A DNA stretch of 21,656 nt from a virus. The DNA is taken from IMG/VR virus record IMGVR_UViG_3300028041_000100, positions 1 through 21,656 of that record. One strand, written 5' to 3'. Each line of letters starts with the position of its first letter. Position 1 is the first letter of the stretch. Below are positions 1,020-21,164 of this stretch, one piece after another. The position numbers and the translations under genes were made by a program. The notes below the pieces were generated by a model. The model was not told where the DNA came from. It made no database searches and was given only the letters and a program-made list of their open reading frames with translations.

Positions 1020-1711
1020 TACACAAACCTCGATACGTCGTCGCCGCCTGACCGAAGCGCCATCTCACCGTTGAGCGCCAACAGCAGATGCTCTACGCGC
1101 TCAAGGGAGCGGGCCGACGATTCGGCGGAGGAGGCGATCCGGCTAAGAATCTCACGCTGCTCCCGAAGCTCCGAGACGATCTGCTCGTCCGACTTGGCCC
1201 GCTCCTCAATCGCAAGTGGCGGAGCCGGACGGTCGGACGCAGGAGCCGACGGCTGACTGGGCGATGGCTGCGGTTCATCGCGTGGCTCGGGAGCCTTGCG
1301 CTCCTCGAACTCCACCGCAGCTTTCTCCAGTTCCTTGATCTCCCGATCTTCTGGACTCCAATCGACCGGTGGTGCAACGTCTGGCTTTGGCGACTCGATC
1401 TCTACCGGGTCCAGCGGCTCAGCGACCTTCGGCTCCTCCGGCTTGTTCTCAGCCAGCGACTCCTTGAGTTGGGCGATGGTCGCCGCGAGGGCTTGGATTG
1501 CCTCCAGAAGCTCCCTGCTGGGCTCCGGTCGCTCAGGGGGACGCTGGGATGTCTCTGCGACAGGAAGCGGCTGTGGAGGCTCTACGCGGGACTGTGGGGC
1601 AGCAGGCAATGGCGCGGCTGGCTCCGAGGGCTCCAGCAATGAGCCGTCGTCATCCCCCGGTGGGAGTGGCAGGCCGTCTGGCCCCTGCGTTAAGTCGTTG
1701 TAGTTAGCCAT
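1019..1711 (-). CDS. Pro/Glu-rich protein with C-terminal coiled coil (230 aa)
   Basis: The start ATG at 1711 overlaps the preceding stop as TGATG, and the stop shares a base with the next start. Residues 1-60 are Pro/Gln-rich and probably disordered. Residues 67-88 (LLEAIQALAATIAQLKESLA) are a predicted helix, followed by an acidic Pro/Glu-rich linker to about residue 170. Residues 171-220 (EQIVSELREQREILSRIA and onward) have clear heptad spacing for a coiled coil ending in LERVEHLLLAL. No catalytic motif is seen. This composition fits a linker, chaperone or scaffold-type assembly factor rather than an enzyme. Tail assembly chaperones often follow the tail tube gene, but no frameshift signal or homology was recognised, so the role stays open. 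Confidence 0.8.
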   Translation of the reverse strand: MANYNDLTQGPDGLPLPPGDDDGSLLEPSEPAAPLPAAPQSRVEPPQPLPVAETSQRPPERPEPSRELLEAIQALAATIAQLKESLAENKPEEPKVAEPLDPVEIESPKPDVAPPVDWSPEDREIKELEKAAVEFEERKAPEPRDEPQPSPSQPSAPASDRPAPPLAIEERAKSDEQIVSELREQREILSRIASSAESSARSLERVEHLLLALNGEMALRSGGDDVSRFV

Positions 1712-2523
1712 CAGGAGATATCGAAGTCGCTGATGACGCCCGAGAACTGGAACGGAATGACGCCGCCGGTCGTGTAGTCCACGTCAGACCGCAGGACCGA
1801 GAGCAGTGCATCTCCGGTCAGCGTCTTGCCGTTGTCCAGTACGAGGTTGGCGTCGAAGTGGAGAATGTCGAACGGAGTGTTCGCCTTGCTGATTGGACCG
1901 GTCAGCCGGAACGGCGTCACCAGATCGTGCGGGCCGCCACGGTTGAAGTAGATTCCCTGCCGCGTCGAGTCGAAGATGCACGCAGCAGAGACGGTCCCCG
2001 TCCCGAACGGGAACGTGACGGTCGCCGGTGGCTCGGCATGTTCAAACTCAAGTGGCGTCTCATCGTTGAGCAGGTGCCCGCGCAGTGACCCGCCGTAGCT
2101 GACCTTGGTGTAGGCGAAAATGGTCTTGGGCAGCGGATCGTTGGCGGCGGTGACGTTGATGAGCCCCATGTTCCGCTGGAGAACCACCTGCGAGACTCGG
2201 GCCTGGATCGCGCCTTCGACCCCACCGACTCCACCCGGAGCGGCGTACTGGAACTCCCATGAGCTTCCACCATCGCCCGAGGTCTGGTACCAGCCGTGGC
2301 CCTCCAGCCGCATCACCTGTCGCTTGGTCGCCCGGTAGGCGGCGGCAGTGACCGTGGTTGATGGGGTTGTGTAGGTGTCGGTGTCGCCCTGCTGGGTGAC
2401 ATCCTGAGACGGGGTCTGGCGGTCAATGGCAGTGTCATCAATGCAGATGCGAAAGCCCTGCCCCGCGTTGTTGAAGCCGGTCAGGCTGCTGCCGGCAGCT
2501 ACGGCGAAACTTGGAATGGCCAT
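1711..2523 (-). CDS. Virion structural protein, tail-tube-like candidate (270 aa)
   Basis: The start ATG at 2523 is set by the ribosome binding site GGGGAGAGAGA (2527-2537), 24 bases after the upstream stop. The product is Gly/Thr/Ser-rich and looks all-beta with no membrane segment. The C-terminus, with LDNGKTLTGDALLSVLRSD followed by GGVIPFQFSGVISDFDIS, resembles the closing strands of phage tail-tube and related beta-sandwich proteins. It is the only gene in this part of the operon with its own strong ribosome binding site, consistent with a more abundant structural protein. The tail-tube idea is inference from pattern and position; a generic virion protein is equally possible. Confidence 0.75.
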   Translation of the reverse strand: MAIPSFAVAAGSSLTGFNNAGQGFRICIDDTAIDRQTPSQDVTQQGDTDTYTTPSTTVTAAAYRATKRQVMRLEGHGWYQTSGDGGSSWEFQYAAPGGVGGVEGAIQARVSQVVLQRNMGLINVTAANDPLPKTIFAYTKVSYGGSLRGHLLNDETPLEFEHAEPPATVTFPFGTGTVSAACIFDSTRQGIYFNRGGPHDLVTPFRLTGPISKANTPFDILHFDANLVLDNGKTLTGDALLSVLRSDVDYTTGGVIPFQFSGVISDFDIS

Positions 2524-2526
2524 CGT

Positions 2527-2537
2527 TCTCTCTCCCC
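2527..2537 (-). promoter_or_regulatory. Ribosome binding site GGGGAGAGAGA
   Basis: The minus strand reads GGGGAGAGAGA, then ACG, then the ATG at 2523. The GGAG core is 8 bases before the start and fixes the start of the tail-tube-like gene. The same motif recurs at 11072-11081, 11469-11478, 14179-14187 and 20947-20959. Confidence 0.7.
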
Positions 2538-2547
2538 TCGTTCAAAG

Positions 2548-3231
2548 TCAGTTCTTGGTAGGTCTGGGCACAATCACACGCGGGTCGTTCTGTACGGGTC
2601 GATCCAAGTCGGGCCTGAACCCGGCGGCCACCCGGTCGCGGAACGATGTGTACGCCTGCCACCCCTGCTGCCCGTACATCGTGCGGGGGTCGGCGTAGAC
2701 CAGAGCGGTCGCCGCCCCGAATCGCAGCACGGCGTCGGCGTACTGGGGCGGAAGGTTCAGGATCACACCTGATGGGCTGGATGTCCCAATGGTCCAAGAC
2801 GTAAACGGCTGCCACCAGAACACCGTCAGCGTCATGTTGCCGCTGGGCTTCTTGTCGAACCACAGCCGGCTTGGGCCCTCGAAGGCAAGCATCGTCGGCT
2901 GCCCCGTGGGGGTTGCCCCATCGTGATATCTCTGGACGGTATGGAGCGGGGCCTGCTTGACGGCCTTGCCACCGATTGACGCCCAGATGAAGTTCTCCTC
3001 CATGAACCGATCCATCCCGGCGACGCCCTGGATGTTGAACGGATGGGCGGAACCGGCTGTCAGCGGCACGCTGGTCGTGCCGCGAATCGCGCGTGTGGTC
3101 TGGGCGAAGTCGTTGCCAGCGAACCGAATCGCGCGGTCCACGTTCTCCGGCCCGAAATGCCCATGCCCTGCCGGTGCGTGCAGCACGCCAGACAGCACCG
3201 TCTCTCTCGCTTCGGCCAGCGTCATGCTCAT
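2548..3231 (-). CDS. Probable neck/head-tail connector-type protein (227 aa)
   Basis: The start ATG at 3231 overlaps the stop of the upstream gene as ATGA, so the two are coupled. The N-terminus (SMTLAEARETVLSGVL, then ENVDRAIRFAGNDFAQTTR) is helical and resembles the start of phage head-tail adaptor proteins, in which short N-terminal helices precede a beta domain. Residues about 95-150 are beta-rich with many aromatics (LWFDKKPSGNMTLTVFWWQ), and a helix follows at YADAVLRFGAATALV. It lies directly after a second connector-like gene. The connector role is inferred from these patterns and gene order; no residue-level signature was found. Confidence 0.75.
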   Translation of the reverse strand: MSMTLAEARETVLSGVLHAPAGHGHFGPENVDRAIRFAGNDFAQTTRAIRGTTSVPLTAGSAHPFNIQGVAGMDRFMEENFIWASIGGKAVKQAPLHTVQRYHDGATPTGQPTMLAFEGPSRLWFDKKPSGNMTLTVFWWQPFTSWTIGTSSPSGVILNLPPQYADAVLRFGAATALVYADPRTMYGQQGWQAYTSFRDRVAAGFRPDLDRPVQNDPRVIVPRPTKN

Positions 3232-15732: not shown

Positions 15733-16210
15733 CGGTCTGTTCAAACTCTGCGTCGATCACCGGGGCCGGAAGCATCGGCGCCTCGTCCGCGAGTCGAAGG
15801 GCGATTCGTCTGGCCTGCTCGTCCCGCACGAGCATCCGGCCCGCGTCCGATCCGATCGTGATGCTCACGCCCGCCGACTGCGGATCGTCGCCCCATAAGG
15901 GCCGGGCCATCTTGGATGCGGCCCACTTGTACGCCTCCATTGCGGCCCGGCCGGCGTTGTGCGGGATGCTGCCGGTCTCTACTGCGGCGGCGATGTCCAG
16001 CACCCTCTGGGCATACACATCGCCACGGGTCGCACGCGCCAGCTCGTACTCCTTCCAAAGCTGCGGGTCGTCGGCCACGCCACGCATGAACTCCATCCGC
16101 GTCATGCCAGCGACCTGACAGGCGTCGTCGAGCGGAACGCCGTTGCCCACCGCGTCGATCACGCCCTGAATCATCTTGCGACGGGTCTTGTCACCAATGG
16201 GTCTAGCCAT
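15716..16210 (-). CDS. terS: Terminase small subunit-like protein (164 aa)
   Basis: The start ATG at 16210 overlaps the upstream gene by 8 bases; the frame extends further but without a ribosome binding site and inside that gene. An N-terminal helix-turn-helix is visible (VPLDDACQVAGMTRMEFMRG, about residues 25-44), with which the subunit would recognise viral DNA. It is followed by the long helix ELARATRGDVYAQRVLDIAA (about 55-74) and then AAMEAYKWAASKMARPLWGD (about 86-105). The order HTH, 'A.a.rad...e.vl.Ia', then 'K.W.asK..p..wGd' matches the Sf6-type small terminase family. The C-terminus is acidic (DAEFEQTDAKES) and may contact the large subunit. Position directly before the large terminase supports the call. 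Confidence 0.85.
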   Translation of the reverse strand: MARPIGDKTRRKMIQGVIDAVGNGVPLDDACQVAGMTRMEFMRGVADDPQLWKEYELARATRGDVYAQRVLDIAAAVETGSIPHNAGRAAMEAYKWAASKMARPLWGDDPQSAGVSITIGSDAGRMLVRDEQARRIALRLADEAPMLPAPVIDAEFEQTDAKES

Positions 16211-16670
16211 TGGCAGACTCCCGGAGCTTTGCGATCGCCGCCTTGTGAATCCGCAAAACCTTGTCGTACTTGACGGACAGCGACCGGGCGATATCCGCCA
16301 GCGTTTCACTGCGAGCCCATCGACTGACGATGGTGCGTTCGAGTCCGCTCAGGCCATCGAGCAATTCGGCAAGCTCTGGCGACACCGCCTCAGCCTCTTG
16401 CGCTACCCGAGACGCCGCGGCAATGGCCCTGCAACGCCGGTCGTCGGCGATCTCCTGCGCACGCAGTGCGGTGCGCATCGCGTTGCTGGCGTGAGTTGCC
16501 AGCTTCACTCCATCGGGCTTGTCTGCGGCGTTTAGCCGTACAATCGCCGCAAGAGCCGCTTCCTGAATCCGGTCGCTCTCGTCTACCGCCGGATCGTTGA
16601 CCCCACCGCGATGCCGTGCGTAGGACCGCGCAGCAGCCAACACTTCTTTCCCTGTATCTCCCCCCTCCAT
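16203..16670 (-). CDS. Small sigma-70-like factor (155 aa)
   Basis: The start ATG at 16670 is preferred because GGGGAG lies 8 bases upstream; a GTG at 16679 is the alternative. Residues about 33-72 (DRIQEAALAAIVRLNAADKP, then DGVKLATHASNAMRTALR) follow the sigma region 2 pattern 'D.iQeg.lali.A......G..f.Tya...ir.al'. Residues about 100-150 (LLDGLSGLERTIVSRWA, then ETLADIARSLSVKYDKVLRI, ending AAIAKLRE) follow the region 4 helix-turn-helix pattern. Regions 1 and 3 are absent, as in small ECF-type and phage sigma factors. It probably binds host RNA polymerase or DNA and could direct late transcription. A small DNA-packaging HTH protein is the main alternative, given the terminase neighbours. 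Confidence 0.7.
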   Translation of the reverse strand: MEGGDTGKEVLAAARSYARHRGGVNDPAVDESDRIQEAALAAIVRLNAADKPDGVKLATHASNAMRTALRAQEIADDRRCRAIAAASRVAQEAEAVSPELAELLDGLSGLERTIVSRWARSETLADIARSLSVKYDKVLRIHKAAIAKLRESANG

Positions 16671-16685
16671 GCTCCACACTCCCCA

Positions 16686-17764: not shown

Positions 17765-19798
17765 TTAGCTCGCCAGACCCTGCACCTGAGTGACCGAATC
17801 GTCGGACACCGACTGCTGGGCAATCACGGTCGAACCGTTGGACCCGTGGGTTGTCAGCGTTTCGCTGGTCAGCGTCACATGCCCAAAGGTGCGAAGGAAC
17901 AGACCCGAGAACCGCTGGGGCAGCGTCCACGCCATCGGGTCGCCCGAAGGGTCAGCCGTGGTGATGAGATTCAGACCGTCACTTGCCAGCTTGTATCCCG
18001 TCTTGTCGAGAACGGTCTGGACCGTGACCGTCTCGCCGTCGAGTGTTGCCCGAACATCGGAACCGGTGAAGGTCAGCAGGTCGGTCTTGGCCTTGATCGC
18101 GGTCACGTCCGCGTTGCTCGGGGCGGTGTAGGCCGATGCGGCAAGCCGAGTGGAGGTAGCCACGTCGATTCGTCCAGTAACCGTGGGCGTAAGCCCCACA
18201 TCGGCCAGTGCCGCGTCAGCCTGAGTCTTTGCCTGTGCAGCCGTCAGCGTCGATCGGCTCGATACCGTCGCGTCGATCCGGCCCGTGATCGTGCTGGTCA
18301 GGCCCACATCGGCGATCGCCTGATCGGCCTGAGCCTTGACCTGACCGGTGGTGATCGTCGATCGGCTGCTGATCGTCGCGTCGATCCGGCCTGTCACGGT
18401 GGAGGTCAGCCCGACAGCCGAAAGAGCGTTGTCGGCCTGCGTGCGGACCTGCGTAGTCGAGACATCGTTGAACCCGGTGACGCCAGTGCCCTTGGCAAGC
18501 ACGATGTTGGCCCCGCTGGTCAGCGTTCGCGTAGCGTGCGTCCAGATGGCTTCCGGGGTCAGGTCCGACCCGCCAGCCGAGGACACCAAAGCGTCGAGGA
18601 AGTAGCCAAACGTACCGGCGACACGCGATCCGCCGCGGGGCCGGTCCCATATCGCGTCAGCCCCGGATGCGGAGAGCGTGTACCCGGTCTTGTCGTTGTT
18701 GGTCCCAACCGTCACTGCGTTGGTGATCGTGGACACCGTCGGGATTACCGCGTTGGTGTGCGTCGTGGCCGCCAGGATCACGCGACCACCAGCAGCGACG
18801 ATGATCGGCTCGCCCGTAGACGAGATATTCGTCGCGTCGGTCAGCCTGCGGGTTCCAACCGCCCAGACATCCGCCGCCGAATGGGTAGACCGGGACGCGA
18901 CGGTGGATTGCAATGCCTCTCCGAAGGTGCCTGCATCGGCGTAGCTGGCTCGCGTAGCGCCCCAGACAGCATCCCGCACCATAGACTCACTCATCCCGCC
19001 CGAAGCAGTGATCGCCTCGGTGATCTGGGCGTCGAGGAAGTGGCCGAAGCTGCCGGTGGGCCGCGAGTCCGCCGACCGCATCCGGTTCCAGATCGCGTCG
19101 ATGCCAGCGGTGGTCAGCGTGTAGCCAGTCTTGTCAGTGACGGACGACGCTTCGGCAGAGACAATGGAGGCTCGCGCGTCGTACCCGGTGGTGAAGAACA
19201 GCACCAGATTGTCGGCTGGCTCGGTGGCGTTGCGGACGCGATCAATGTCTACCCGAGGCACGCCATTGGTGTTGGGCGTAAGGACCGTCTGATTAGCCCA
19301 GTGAGTTACGTTGGCAACGACGCGACCGCTTGTAACGTCGATCTGGCCCGTGGCCGTGCCCGGCTGAACCTTGACGCGGCCCTGATCCAGATCAATCTGG
19401 CCGGTCGATGTGCCGGGCTGAACCTTGACGCGACCGCTGGTCAGGTCGAGTTGGTGGGCCCCGGTGCCCGCTGTCGGCAGGCCGCCGGAGCTGCCGGGCG
19501 CAGCGTTGGGCAGCCGCTCGAACTGGATCGTGACCGGGATGATGGATACTGAGGATGTGCTTGATTTGCCGGCCAGCGTGCCGATGTTGCAGTCGGTTTC
19601 GGTGGAAGTCAGCGTGATCTTGTAGATGCCGGGGCAGTTGGCCGAATCGACTTCGGACGGCGAATTGGTCGGCGCCGACGCCGTGCCGTCCTTGATCCAT
19701 CGCAAAGTGTGATTCGCCACGTCCCCGGTCTTGCCCGCACCGGCAGATGTGTCCCATGCGACGTACTGGATCGTCATGCCGACTGCGCGAGTAGCCAT
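17765..19798 (-). CDS. Repeat-rich tail fibre-like protein (677 aa)
   Basis: The start ATG at 19798 overlaps the upstream stop as TAATG. Residues 1-100 look like a beta-sandwich domain (TIQYVAWDTSAGAGKTGDVA, GIYKITLTSTETDCNIG). Residues about 118-155 hold 18-residue repeats (GRVKVQPGT.TGQID). The motif DKTGYTL...G.DAIW occurs around 222 and 369, with DKTGYKL near 598; 'ADVWAVGTRRLT' and 'PEAIWTHATRTLT' motifs occur near 309 and 415, as in many phage tail fibres. Residues 447-482, 483-518 and 519-554 are three tandem 36-residue repeats (Q.K.QAD.A..DVGLTST.TGRIDAT.SSRST). The architecture fits an elongated trimeric fibre; the C-terminal domain could be the receptor tip. No enzymatic motif is seen. 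Confidence 0.85.
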   Translation of the reverse strand: MATRAVGMTIQYVAWDTSAGAGKTGDVANHTLRWIKDGTASAPTNSPSEVDSANCPGIYKITLTSTETDCNIGTLAGKSSTSSVSIIPVTIQFERLPNAAPGSSGGLPTAGTGAHQLDLTSGRVKVQPGTSTGQIDLDQGRVKVQPGTATGQIDVTSGRVVANVTHWANQTVLTPNTNGVPRVDIDRVRNATEPADNLVLFFTTGYDARASIVSAEASSVTDKTGYTLTTAGIDAIWNRMRSADSRPTGSFGHFLDAQITEAITASGGMSESMVRDAVWGATRASYADAGTFGEALQSTVASRSTHSAADVWAVGTRRLTDATNISSTGEPIIVAAGGRVILAATTHTNAVIPTVSTITNAVTVGTNNDKTGYTLSASGADAIWDRPRGGSRVAGTFGYFLDALVSSAGGSDLTPEAIWTHATRTLTSGANIVLAKGTGVTGFNDVSTTQVRTQADNALSAVGLTSTVTGRIDATISSRSTITTGQVKAQADQAIADVGLTSTITGRIDATVSSRSTLTAAQAKTQADAALADVGLTPTVTGRIDVATSTRLAASAYTAPSNADVTAIKAKTDLLTFTGSDVRATLDGETVTVQTVLDKTGYKLASDGLNLITTADPSGDPMAWTLPQRFSGLFLRTFGHVTLTSETLTTHGSNGSTVIAQQSVSDDSVTQVQGLAS

Positions 19799-20946
19799 TA
19801 CATGCAGGCTCCGACAAGGTGTTGGATCGGCGTGTTTGCTGAGGATGGGGCAACCAGGTCGCTCATGCTCCAGTCGTCTAACTGTGCTGCGTTGCGGAGT
19901 ACCAGTCCCCCGTAGACGAACCCGCTGATGTTGGTGTCCGTCACGCTCTCATGCTGCACGCCATCGACCCATATGCTGATCGTGGACCCGAGGGCTCTGC
20001 ACCGGACGAACGTGCCGTCTGCCGGATCGCTGGCTCCGACCTGCGACAGAGAGGTGAATGCTCCGTTGACTACTCGCGCAAGCCCTCGCCCATCGCCGCC
20101 GCCAGTCAGGCTCGCTGCGTAGTAGGTCCGAGTCCCGGTGCCAGGAACGCGAACGAGGGCGCCGGCCTCACGGGCATTCGTGGTTATGCCGTAGACCCGG
20201 ACCTGCGCTGCAAGGTCATCGACGCTCAGGCCGGTCGTCGCGTGACACTCGGTCTTGCCAAAGTCGCCGACCACGGCGCAGCGGTTGGAGCGGGTTTCCG
20301 CATCGCCGCTGAGTTCGACCCACGAAAGCTGCGGCCCGAGCGTAGTAGAGTTGGCCTGATTGAAGTCCTCGCTGAGCGTAGTGGCGGGCCGGATCGGCTT
20401 GTCACCCTTCTCCGCGATCTCCTCGAACGGCACACGCAGCTTGCGACGTACGCACTCGCCATACTTGGCGGCGAGAGCCGTGTCGCGTTGCTTGATGGCC
20501 TTGTAGCTTGCCCGAACCTGCCGCTGGATGACAGGCCATGCCGGATCGGATTGACCGGTGAACGGCTTGCTTTGGACCAGCCCCAATGTCCCGACGTACA
20601 ACTCGCTGATCCCCTTGTGGGTCGGCATGATGGGCCGGGCGTGCTTCTCGCCATCGGAGTCGGCGGCGGCAGTGAGTGTTTCCCATAGGATGTCGAGCAG
20701 CCGGAAGGACGCAGGAGCCCGAGTCATCCCCACCCGGTCACGCCAGACGTTTCGCTGCCCGGCGGTCAGGTTCCCGTCGAGCGTGTCGCCGAGGTCTGTG
20801 TAGTCAGAACCGGGATGGGTCGAGCAGTGGAACAGACCAACACCACCGGCCTGCCCGCGCAGGTCCAGTGCGGACCCAGCATGGGAAGCCGGAGGGACAA
20901 AGCCCCCAGATGAATCGGTCTGCCAAGGCCCGATGTAGAACCTCAC
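19798..20946 (-). CDS. Tail protein with C-terminal ConA/LamG-like jelly roll (382 aa, GTG start)
   Basis: The GTG at 20946 is chosen because GGGGAGAGAGGGA (20947-20959) lies immediately upstream. The open frame goes further, but through the tRNA-like RNA at 20971-21075. The first 185 residues (RFYIGPWQTDSSGGFVPPAS, then helices at about 60-180) are of unknown fold. Residues about 190-365 form a jelly-roll pattern: SEDFNQANSTTLGPQLSWVE at the start, AQVRVYGITTNAREAGALVR, then TYYAASLTGGGDGRGLARVV, STISIWVDGVQHESVTDT and GFVYGGLVLRN. This is the order of ConA-like lectin/glucanase domains, suggesting binding of a host surface sugar. No catalytic acidic pair is obvious. It heads the fibre block. 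Confidence 0.8.
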   Translation of the reverse strand: MRFYIGPWQTDSSGGFVPPASHAGSALDLRGQAGGVGLFHCSTHPGSDYTDLGDTLDGNLTAGQRNVWRDRVGMTRAPASFRLLDILWETLTAAADSDGEKHARPIMPTHKGISELYVGTLGLVQSKPFTGQSDPAWPVIQRQVRASYKAIKQRDTALAAKYGECVRRKLRVPFEEIAEKGDKPIRPATTLSEDFNQANSTTLGPQLSWVELSGDAETRSNRCAVVGDFGKTECHATTGLSVDDLAAQVRVYGITTNAREAGALVRVPGTGTRTYYAASLTGGGDGRGLARVVNGAFTSLSQVGASDPADGTFVRCRALGSTISIWVDGVQHESVTDTNISGFVYGGLVLRNAAQLDDWSMSDLVAPSSANTPIQHLVGACM

Positions 20947-20959: not shown

Positions 20960-20970
20960 AACAGCATCAG

Positions 20971-21075
20971 TGGAGGCGGGTGGAGTCGAACCACCGTCTC
21001 GCAGTCCTGTGGCCCCGCAGGGTTGTGCCGTTGTCGGGCTCCCTGCGGCAGTCTGCGGCTAACCCTTTCGCCCCC
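20971..21075 (-). ncRNA. 105-nt tRNA-like RNA with tmRNA-type ends and no clear anticodon
   Basis: On the minus strand a 7-bp acceptor (GGGGGCG, 21069-21075, with CGCCTCC, 20972-20978) includes G1-C72, G2-C71 and a G3-U70 wobble, followed by discriminator A. A perfect T arm is present (GGTGG-TTCGACT-CCACC, 20979-20995). Instead of a D arm there is an 11-base loop (AAAGGGTTAGC, 21058-21068), and instead of an anticodon arm a 5-bp helix (CGCAG/CTGCG) carries a perfect 8-bp helix (CCGCAGGG/CCCTGCGG). A loop for D, a long helix in place of the anticodon arm, and these end sequences match the tRNA-like domain of tmRNA, but the tag-coding and pseudoknot region is missing. CCA is not encoded. It could instead be a tRNA with an insertion or a decayed tmRNA. 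Confidence 0.55.
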
Positions 21076-21094
21076 TCTACGAACCACCCCTCAA

Positions 21095-21163
21095 TAGCGG
21101 GTCCGGGAGTTGAACCCGGCGTCGCTGGCTTATGAGGCCAACTTGGTCCCACGACCACCCGCG
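21095..21163 (-). tRNA. tRNA-Met-like (anticodon CAT), short D region
   Basis: On the minus strand the 69 bases fold with acceptor GCGGGT/ACCCGC plus a C1-U72 mismatch, anticodon stem TTGGC/GCCAG around the loop CTCATAA (anticodon CAT), and T arm CCGGG-TTCAACT-CCCGG, ending in A without an encoded CCA. Only 15 bases separate the acceptor and anticodon stems (normally about 19), with a 4-bp D stem (GGTC/GACC) and a 4-base loop. CAT may decode Met (elongator or initiator) or, if lysidine-modified, Ile. The unpaired position 1 is an initiator-like trait, but the anticodon stem lacks the full three G-C pairs of initiators. Confidence 0.6.
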
Positions 21164-21164
21164 A

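Follow-up and report, generated by a model that had tools for sequence, protein, structure and literature searches.

In bacteria, stalled ribosomes are rescued by transfer-messenger RNA (tmRNA). A G3-U70 pair together with A73 makes an RNA a substrate of alanyl-tRNA synthetase (AlaRS), while SmpB grips the elbow of tmRNA. The question raised by the locus described here, a 105-nt stretch with an alanine-type acceptor on a phage contig, is what kind of RNA it encodes and what such an RNA may do for the phage. Full tmRNAs are encoded by mycobacteriophages Bxz1 and Kumao and by Gordonia phage Forza.

As PMC4131195 and PMC11915505 describe with reference to Mao et al. 2009, Mycobacterium phage DS6A has a tmRNA that consists of the tRNA-like domain (TLD) only, and within the open-licence literature this tag-less kind was previously known from that one phage. 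PMC11915505 reports tmRNAs without CDS in the plastids of Mallomonadaceae (~65 nt) and also in mitochondria (Jacob et al. 2004), and states that these organelle molecules persist alongside SmpB.

Genomic setting and architecture of the RNA

The window, i.e. the whole stretch of DNA that was analysed, comprises the 21,656 bases of IMGVR_UViG_3300028041_000100, a linear virus record of IMG/VR that represents a genome fragment. It carries a GC-rich tailed-phage structural module that lies entirely on the minus strand and whose recognised members are a terminase, a major head protein and an adaptor of the SU10 type. The features of the locus are as follows (R1 and type B are defined below):

19798-20946 (-), protein gene downstream of the RNA, from the sequence and ORF list; likely GTG start at 20946
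20971-21075 (-), whole miniature tmRNA-like RNA, 105 nt; R1 45.0 bits and RF00023 41.5 bits, both end to end
20971-20978 (-), acceptor 3' strand CGCCTCC plus A73; U70 pairs with G3, A73 at 20971
20979-20995 (-), T arm GGTGG-TTCGACT-CCACC with a perfect stem
20996-20999 (-), linker AGAC; GGAC, GTAC or GAAC in relatives
21000-21057 (-), P2-like rod hairpin replacing the tag/pseudoknot domain, in the MFE and centroid folds
21058-21068 (-), D-loop-like unpaired stretch AAAGGGTTAGC, resembling type B relatives
21069-21075 (-), acceptor 5' strand GGGGGCG, 7/7 paired with 20978-20972
21094-21164 (-), tRNA-Met (CAT), from ARAGORN; Rfam tRNA model 26.4 bits
21258-21656 (-), protein gene upstream of the RNA, 132 aa, without a Pfam or PHROG match

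The 3' end of the tRNA-Met and the start of the 105-nt RNA are separated by 18 nt on the same strand, and the two probably share one transcript. The likely GTG start of the downstream gene is preceded by GGGGAG; the mechanically derived ORF instead begins at 21087, upstream of the RNA.

Two further observations were made in the window. The tRNA-Met resembles initiator tRNAs in that C1 faces U72 without pairing, yet its anticodon stem is devoid of GGG/CCC. The C-terminus of a 158-aa protein (16203-16679, minus strand) resembles, by eye only, the helix-turn-helix of sigma-factor region 4.

Read from its 5' end, the RNA consists of GGGGGCG, AAAGGGTTAGC, CGCAGACTGCCGCAGGGAGCCCGACAACGGCACAACCCTGCGGGGCCACAGGACTGCG, AGAC, GGTGG, TTCGACT, CCACC, CGCCTCC and A, while CCA is not encoded. 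The original prediction, which named no strand, had described a perfect T arm, a 7-bp acceptor with G3-U70 and A73, an unpaired D-loop-like stretch and a long helix in the place of the anticodon arm, and had reported neither tag nor anticodon. All of these elements were recovered on the minus strand: the T arm at 20995-20979, seven of seven acceptor pairs with A73, the unpaired stretch at 21068-21058 and the rod at 21057-21000, with neither a tag nor an anticodon seen in the 105 nt. Folding confirms the acceptor, the T arm and the long rod helix, the energy being only modestly below that of shuffled sequences (z -2.4). The rod is composed of outer CGCAG/CTGCG, CTG/CAG, inner CCGCAGGG/CCCTGCGG and GCC/GGC stems. 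A tag reading frame and pseudoknots are absent, and ARAGORN in tmRNA mode returned 'Tag not identified'.

Comparison with tRNA and tmRNA models

ARAGORN, the first of the checks proposed for this locus, called only the neighbouring tRNA-Met (21164-21094) at its default threshold. Neither ARAGORN at this threshold nor the Rfam tRNA model (RF00005) recognised at the RNA a cloverleaf with its D and anticodon arms. With a relaxed threshold ARAGORN draws a tRNA-Leu(CAG) with a 31-nt intron. The D stem of that model is mismatched, U33 and a bulge-helix-bulge are absent and its variable loop of 4 nt is unlike that of a leucine tRNA, rendering an ordinary tRNA extremely improbable.

The Rfam tmRNA model (RF00023) did match: from the first to the last, its positions 1-374 align to 20968-21075, the whole tag region appearing as a deletion (E 2.9e-17), and the score of 41.5 bits falls under the curated cut-off of 47 bits; since tRNA-sized matches of this model reach 38 bits in bacterial genomes, the score is suggestive only. 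R1, a family model derived from 21 phage tag-less RNA sequences with the window left out, found exactly 20971-21075 from end to end at 45.0 bits, with an E value of 4.5e-7 for the 649 kb searched, and its alignment marked zero non-standard pairs. With R1, tRNA-Ala genes score at most 32 bits, but the 3' end of one full tmRNA (L059) alone scores 42, and the R1 score is therefore supportive, not decisive. With filters off, R1 gave the RNA no more than 25 bits and covered less of it, probably because the hit-length limit of the model lies below 105 nt.

The window holds a single T arm with a 7-bp acceptor, for which 0.07 are expected per dinucleotide-shuffled window. Shuffling the sequence upstream of an unchanged T arm produced a 7/7 acceptor in 13% of cases and an acceptor plus in-register P2 in 1.6%. 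Acceptor, in-register P2 and D-loop motif coincided in five of 20,000 such shuffles, the D-loop criterion having been picked after the relatives had been seen.

As both RF00023 and the independent R1 align from end to end, the suggestion that this is a tmRNA cut down to its chargeable domain represents the best fit. Like the molecules described by RF00023 (ssrA), the RNA possesses a G3-U70/A73 acceptor, a T arm, an unpaired D loop and P2, and unlike them it is devoid of tag and pseudoknots and measures 105 as opposed to ~350 nt. The canonical D-loop GGTTTCGAC and GGAC linker are replaced by AAAGGGTTAGC and AGAC; the RNA was filed as a variant because its TTAGC D-loop is shared with type B relatives. 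On sequence grounds we therefore regard it as best described as a phage-encoded tag-less tmRNA of a divergent variant, with a TTAGC-type D-loop and an enlarged helix.

A decaying tmRNA gene, or a piece of host tmRNA retained as an attachment site, would account for the divergent D-loop, the isolated copy and the sub-threshold RF00023 score, and phages do integrate at the 3' ends of tmRNA genes. None of the seven acceptor pairs is lost, the T arm and P2 are preserved as well, many relatives are intact, and an attP piece would lack the acceptor 5' strand that is present here; such a remnant is very unlikely.

A permuted tmRNA was also considered and rejected: the relevant models (RF04321, RF01849-51) matched no more than part of the 3' half, at 16-21 bits, the downstream sequence is coding, and the 7/7 acceptor 5' strand sits upstream instead. 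Separately, unannotated permuted tmRNAs were noted with RF04321 in Pseudomonas phage PA_L9 (L349; 115.7 bits), Alcaligenes phage vB_Af_QDWS595 (L369; 111 bits) and cyanophage S-CRM01 (L367; 82.5 bits); those of PA_L9 and vB_Af_QDWS595 also match the betaproteobacterial permuted model.

Relatives in viral contigs

In viral contigs, a first generic pattern (GGGG, T arm, CTCCA) picked up many compact RNAs in which the acceptor is followed by an unpaired D loop, a hairpin, GGAC, the T arm and again the acceptor. Two refined scans then addressed type A, with ..TCGAC in the D loop and GGAC as the linker (at least 120 rows), and type B, with T[TA]AGC in the D loop and G[TA]AC as the linker (51 places). 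Together these represent at least 118 distinct sequences of 64-92 nt with 7/7 acceptors in at least 170 loci, their conservation in acceptor, D loop, linker and T arm being partly by design, because the scan patterns fix parts of these elements.

The MAFFT alignment (A1) put the acceptor out of register because D-loop lengths differ, and the model and the covariation were consequently taken from a subset (A3). Here 97.7% of pair cells are standard, double-change cells number 105 compared to 29 in shuffles, and the covariation score is 0.612 versus 0.116 for shuffled alignments, a signal that is destroyed by sliding the partners. The covarying changes sit in P2, in acceptor pairs 5 and 6 and in the outer T stem. 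RF00023 scores of the tag-less relatives tested ranged from 36 to 77 bits.

Among the relatives listed, the nearest by sequence are of type B: the RNA of contig L287 starts GGGGGCGAAGGGTTTAGC and that of the window GGGGGCGAAAGGGTTAGC, their acceptor strands being identical. The D-loop-like stretch of the window was likened to those of L287 (AAGGGTTTAGC) and L058 (ATTGGTTTAGC), both type B. Most relatives have a far shorter helix than the rod of the window RNA, and covariation is seen in the P2 of the relatives only. A tRNA lies within 300 nt at 14 of the 170 loci listed, and proximity to a tRNA is thus no rule of the tag-less class.

Searches with portal, terminase and major capsid protein (MCP) identified L055 as the nearest relative of the window phage (MCP 59% identical); L055 ends short of the RNA locus, which is not covered by any close relative in these searches. 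Exact-match scans with the 5' 18-mer and with the 25-mer of T arm plus acceptor gave zero matches. Conservation, proposed as a check on the prediction, is thus borne out insofar as the acceptor/T-arm plan is kept with covariation in other phage RNAs, none of which come from close relatives.

Longer forms on L074 (5246, minus), L107 (6291, minus) and L114 (3445, minus) separate the acceptor from the T arm by 97-134 nt, have a GGAC-like linker and are possibly intermediates between tag-less and full tmRNA. Further side observations are a type II hammerhead ribozyme (L287, 5839-5903, plus) and a Pistol ribozyme (L340, 1621-1716, plus), each on a contig with a tag-less tmRNA, and an apparent intein-like insertion, judged by eye, in the L055 terminase (1037-3034, plus; CLAGGTMVSTPMGEVPIESVKIGDEVYT...HNCDA). 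A planctomycete host for the window phage was considered but is not supported, its MCP being unmatched in 294 genomes in a search that had no positive control.

Occurrence in isolated Streptomyces phages

BLASTN searches with two tag-less RNAs led to seven Streptomyces phages (LuckySocke, GiJojo, pSt2308, Shaeky, BRock, Alone3 and Riptide), whose copies score 64.8-89.8 bits with R1 and are in no case annotated as RNA. Six of the copies lie shortly downstream of a tRNA-Val and that of Shaeky lies inside a tRNA cluster. G3-U70 and A73 are present in all seven, the acceptor being free of any search pattern in this instance (e.g. GGGTCTG/CAGATCC and GGGTTTG/CAAATCC). The D loop of the Riptide RNA, AAAGGTTAGA, resembles AAAGGGTTAGC of the window.

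Riptide (PV654398.1; L368) in addition encodes a full tmRNA (94862-95130, 92.9 bits), its tag-less copy (R1 64.9 bits) being located ~11 kb away. In GiJojo, gene 44 (hypothetical protein; L370 394-636, plus) is annotated over the tag-less tmRNA and is probably a false gene.

The RNA of the window resembles that of DS6A, compared by description only, in being a phage-encoded tRNA-like domain of tmRNA from which the tag reading frame is absent, and is set apart from it by the TTAGC D-loop and the 58-nt rod helix. It shares the reduction to the tRNA-like part with the organelle tmRNAs that lack a CDS; those are organellar, and the mitochondrial genes are usually permuted, whereas the tag-less phage genes are not permuted. 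The full phage tmRNAs (Bxz1, Kumao, Forza and Riptide) are likewise phage-borne, tmRNA-derived and often located among tRNA genes, but carry the tag domain that the window RNA lacks, Riptide having both forms.

Distribution in bacteria and archaea

Among the species genomes of bacteria and archaea, 84,980 in all, the type A pattern occurs at 10 places, three of which lie inside full tmRNAs. The seven remaining tag-less RNAs are mostly in MAGs or single-cell genomes, and six of these assemblies also carry a full-length tmRNA, the exception being a Prochlorococcus single-cell genome. Ten places in 84,980 genomes, as opposed to at least 120 viral rows in collections of different size, mark the class as viral. 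With ~15 candidates scored per genome, R1 detected the positive control only among 301 Mycobacterium-family genomes and had no match among 294 planctomycete-phylum genomes.

The chromosome of Cellulomonas massiliensis bears a tag-less tmRNA (L344 779-861, plus; also L362 near 9880) whose neighbouring genes are not clearly phage-like, and elsewhere a full tmRNA with the same GGGGGTG acceptor strand.

Proposed role of the tag-less tmRNA

Our analysis favours, with moderate confidence, an alanine-accepting decoy directed against host trans-translation as the best explanation overall. The RNA would probably be processed, in the manner of a tRNA, from the tRNA-Met transcript and receive CCA; its G3-U70 and A73 would let it accept alanine, EF-Tu and SmpB would bind it, and host tmRNA would then face a competitor for stalled ribosomes, for charging and for SmpB. 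Host ribosome rescue would thereby be damped during infection, to the presumed benefit of the phage. As resume codon and tag are absent, trans-translation cannot be completed, and competition is therefore the simplest outcome. An SmpB gene was not found in the 48 phage records bearing tag-less RNAs, so that SmpB of the host would be used. The decoy reading draws on what PMC4131195 reports of a DS6A-like TLD-only molecule, namely strong inhibition of tmRNA (as also in PMC11915505), whether charged or not, perhaps through titration of SmpB. SmpB binding by the window RNA is not assured, because its D-loop lacks GGTTTCGAC, its helix is long and its linker is AGAC.

Alternatively, the RNA might assist rescue: it would enter stalled ribosomes with SmpB, the nascent chain would be moved onto its alanine, and hydrolysis or drop-off would free the ribosome, allowing phage proteins to escape tagging for proteolysis. 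We know of no ribosome-freeing step of this kind. The retention of G3-U70 and A73 where no pattern forced it suggests that charging matters, and organelle tmRNAs without CDS coexist with SmpB according to PMC11915505; yet a similar molecule is reported in PMC4131195 to inhibit whether chargeable or not, and this role appears rather unlikely.

The alanine identity elements, the missing anticodon and the departure of the type B D-loop from the SmpB-facing tmRNA motif would also suit a mimic of tRNA-Ala that acts on AlaRS or EF-Tu, not SmpB, for example by holding back alanine or by resisting anticodon-cutting defences. This is unlikely given the overall tmRNA plan (no D stem, P2, a linker preceding the T arm) and the GGTTTCGAC/GGAC kept by most relatives, of which GGAC and TCGAC are partly fixed by the scan pattern.

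Beyond the decoy reading, we tentatively raise the possibility that selection maintains tag-less tmRNAs widely in phages as a tool or weapon against ribosome rescue, in two or more D-loop classes that include TTCGAC and TTAGC, and that the TTAGC class, including the window RNA, might contact SmpB or another partner in a manner new for any tmRNA.

Conclusions

What is new in this study is the breadth of the class, with two D-loop types in many phages, and the divergent form of the window RNA. Annotation pipelines overlook tag-less tmRNAs because a tag is expected. The tag-less tmRNA thus goes from a feature of one phage to a common phage gene, and seven isolated Streptomyces phages are at hand for testing. 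If trans-translation is indeed blocked, phages would be seen to target ribosome rescue directly, the role of trans-translation in infection would become testable, and these RNAs would represent natural inhibitors of a pathway that is studied as an antibiotic target.
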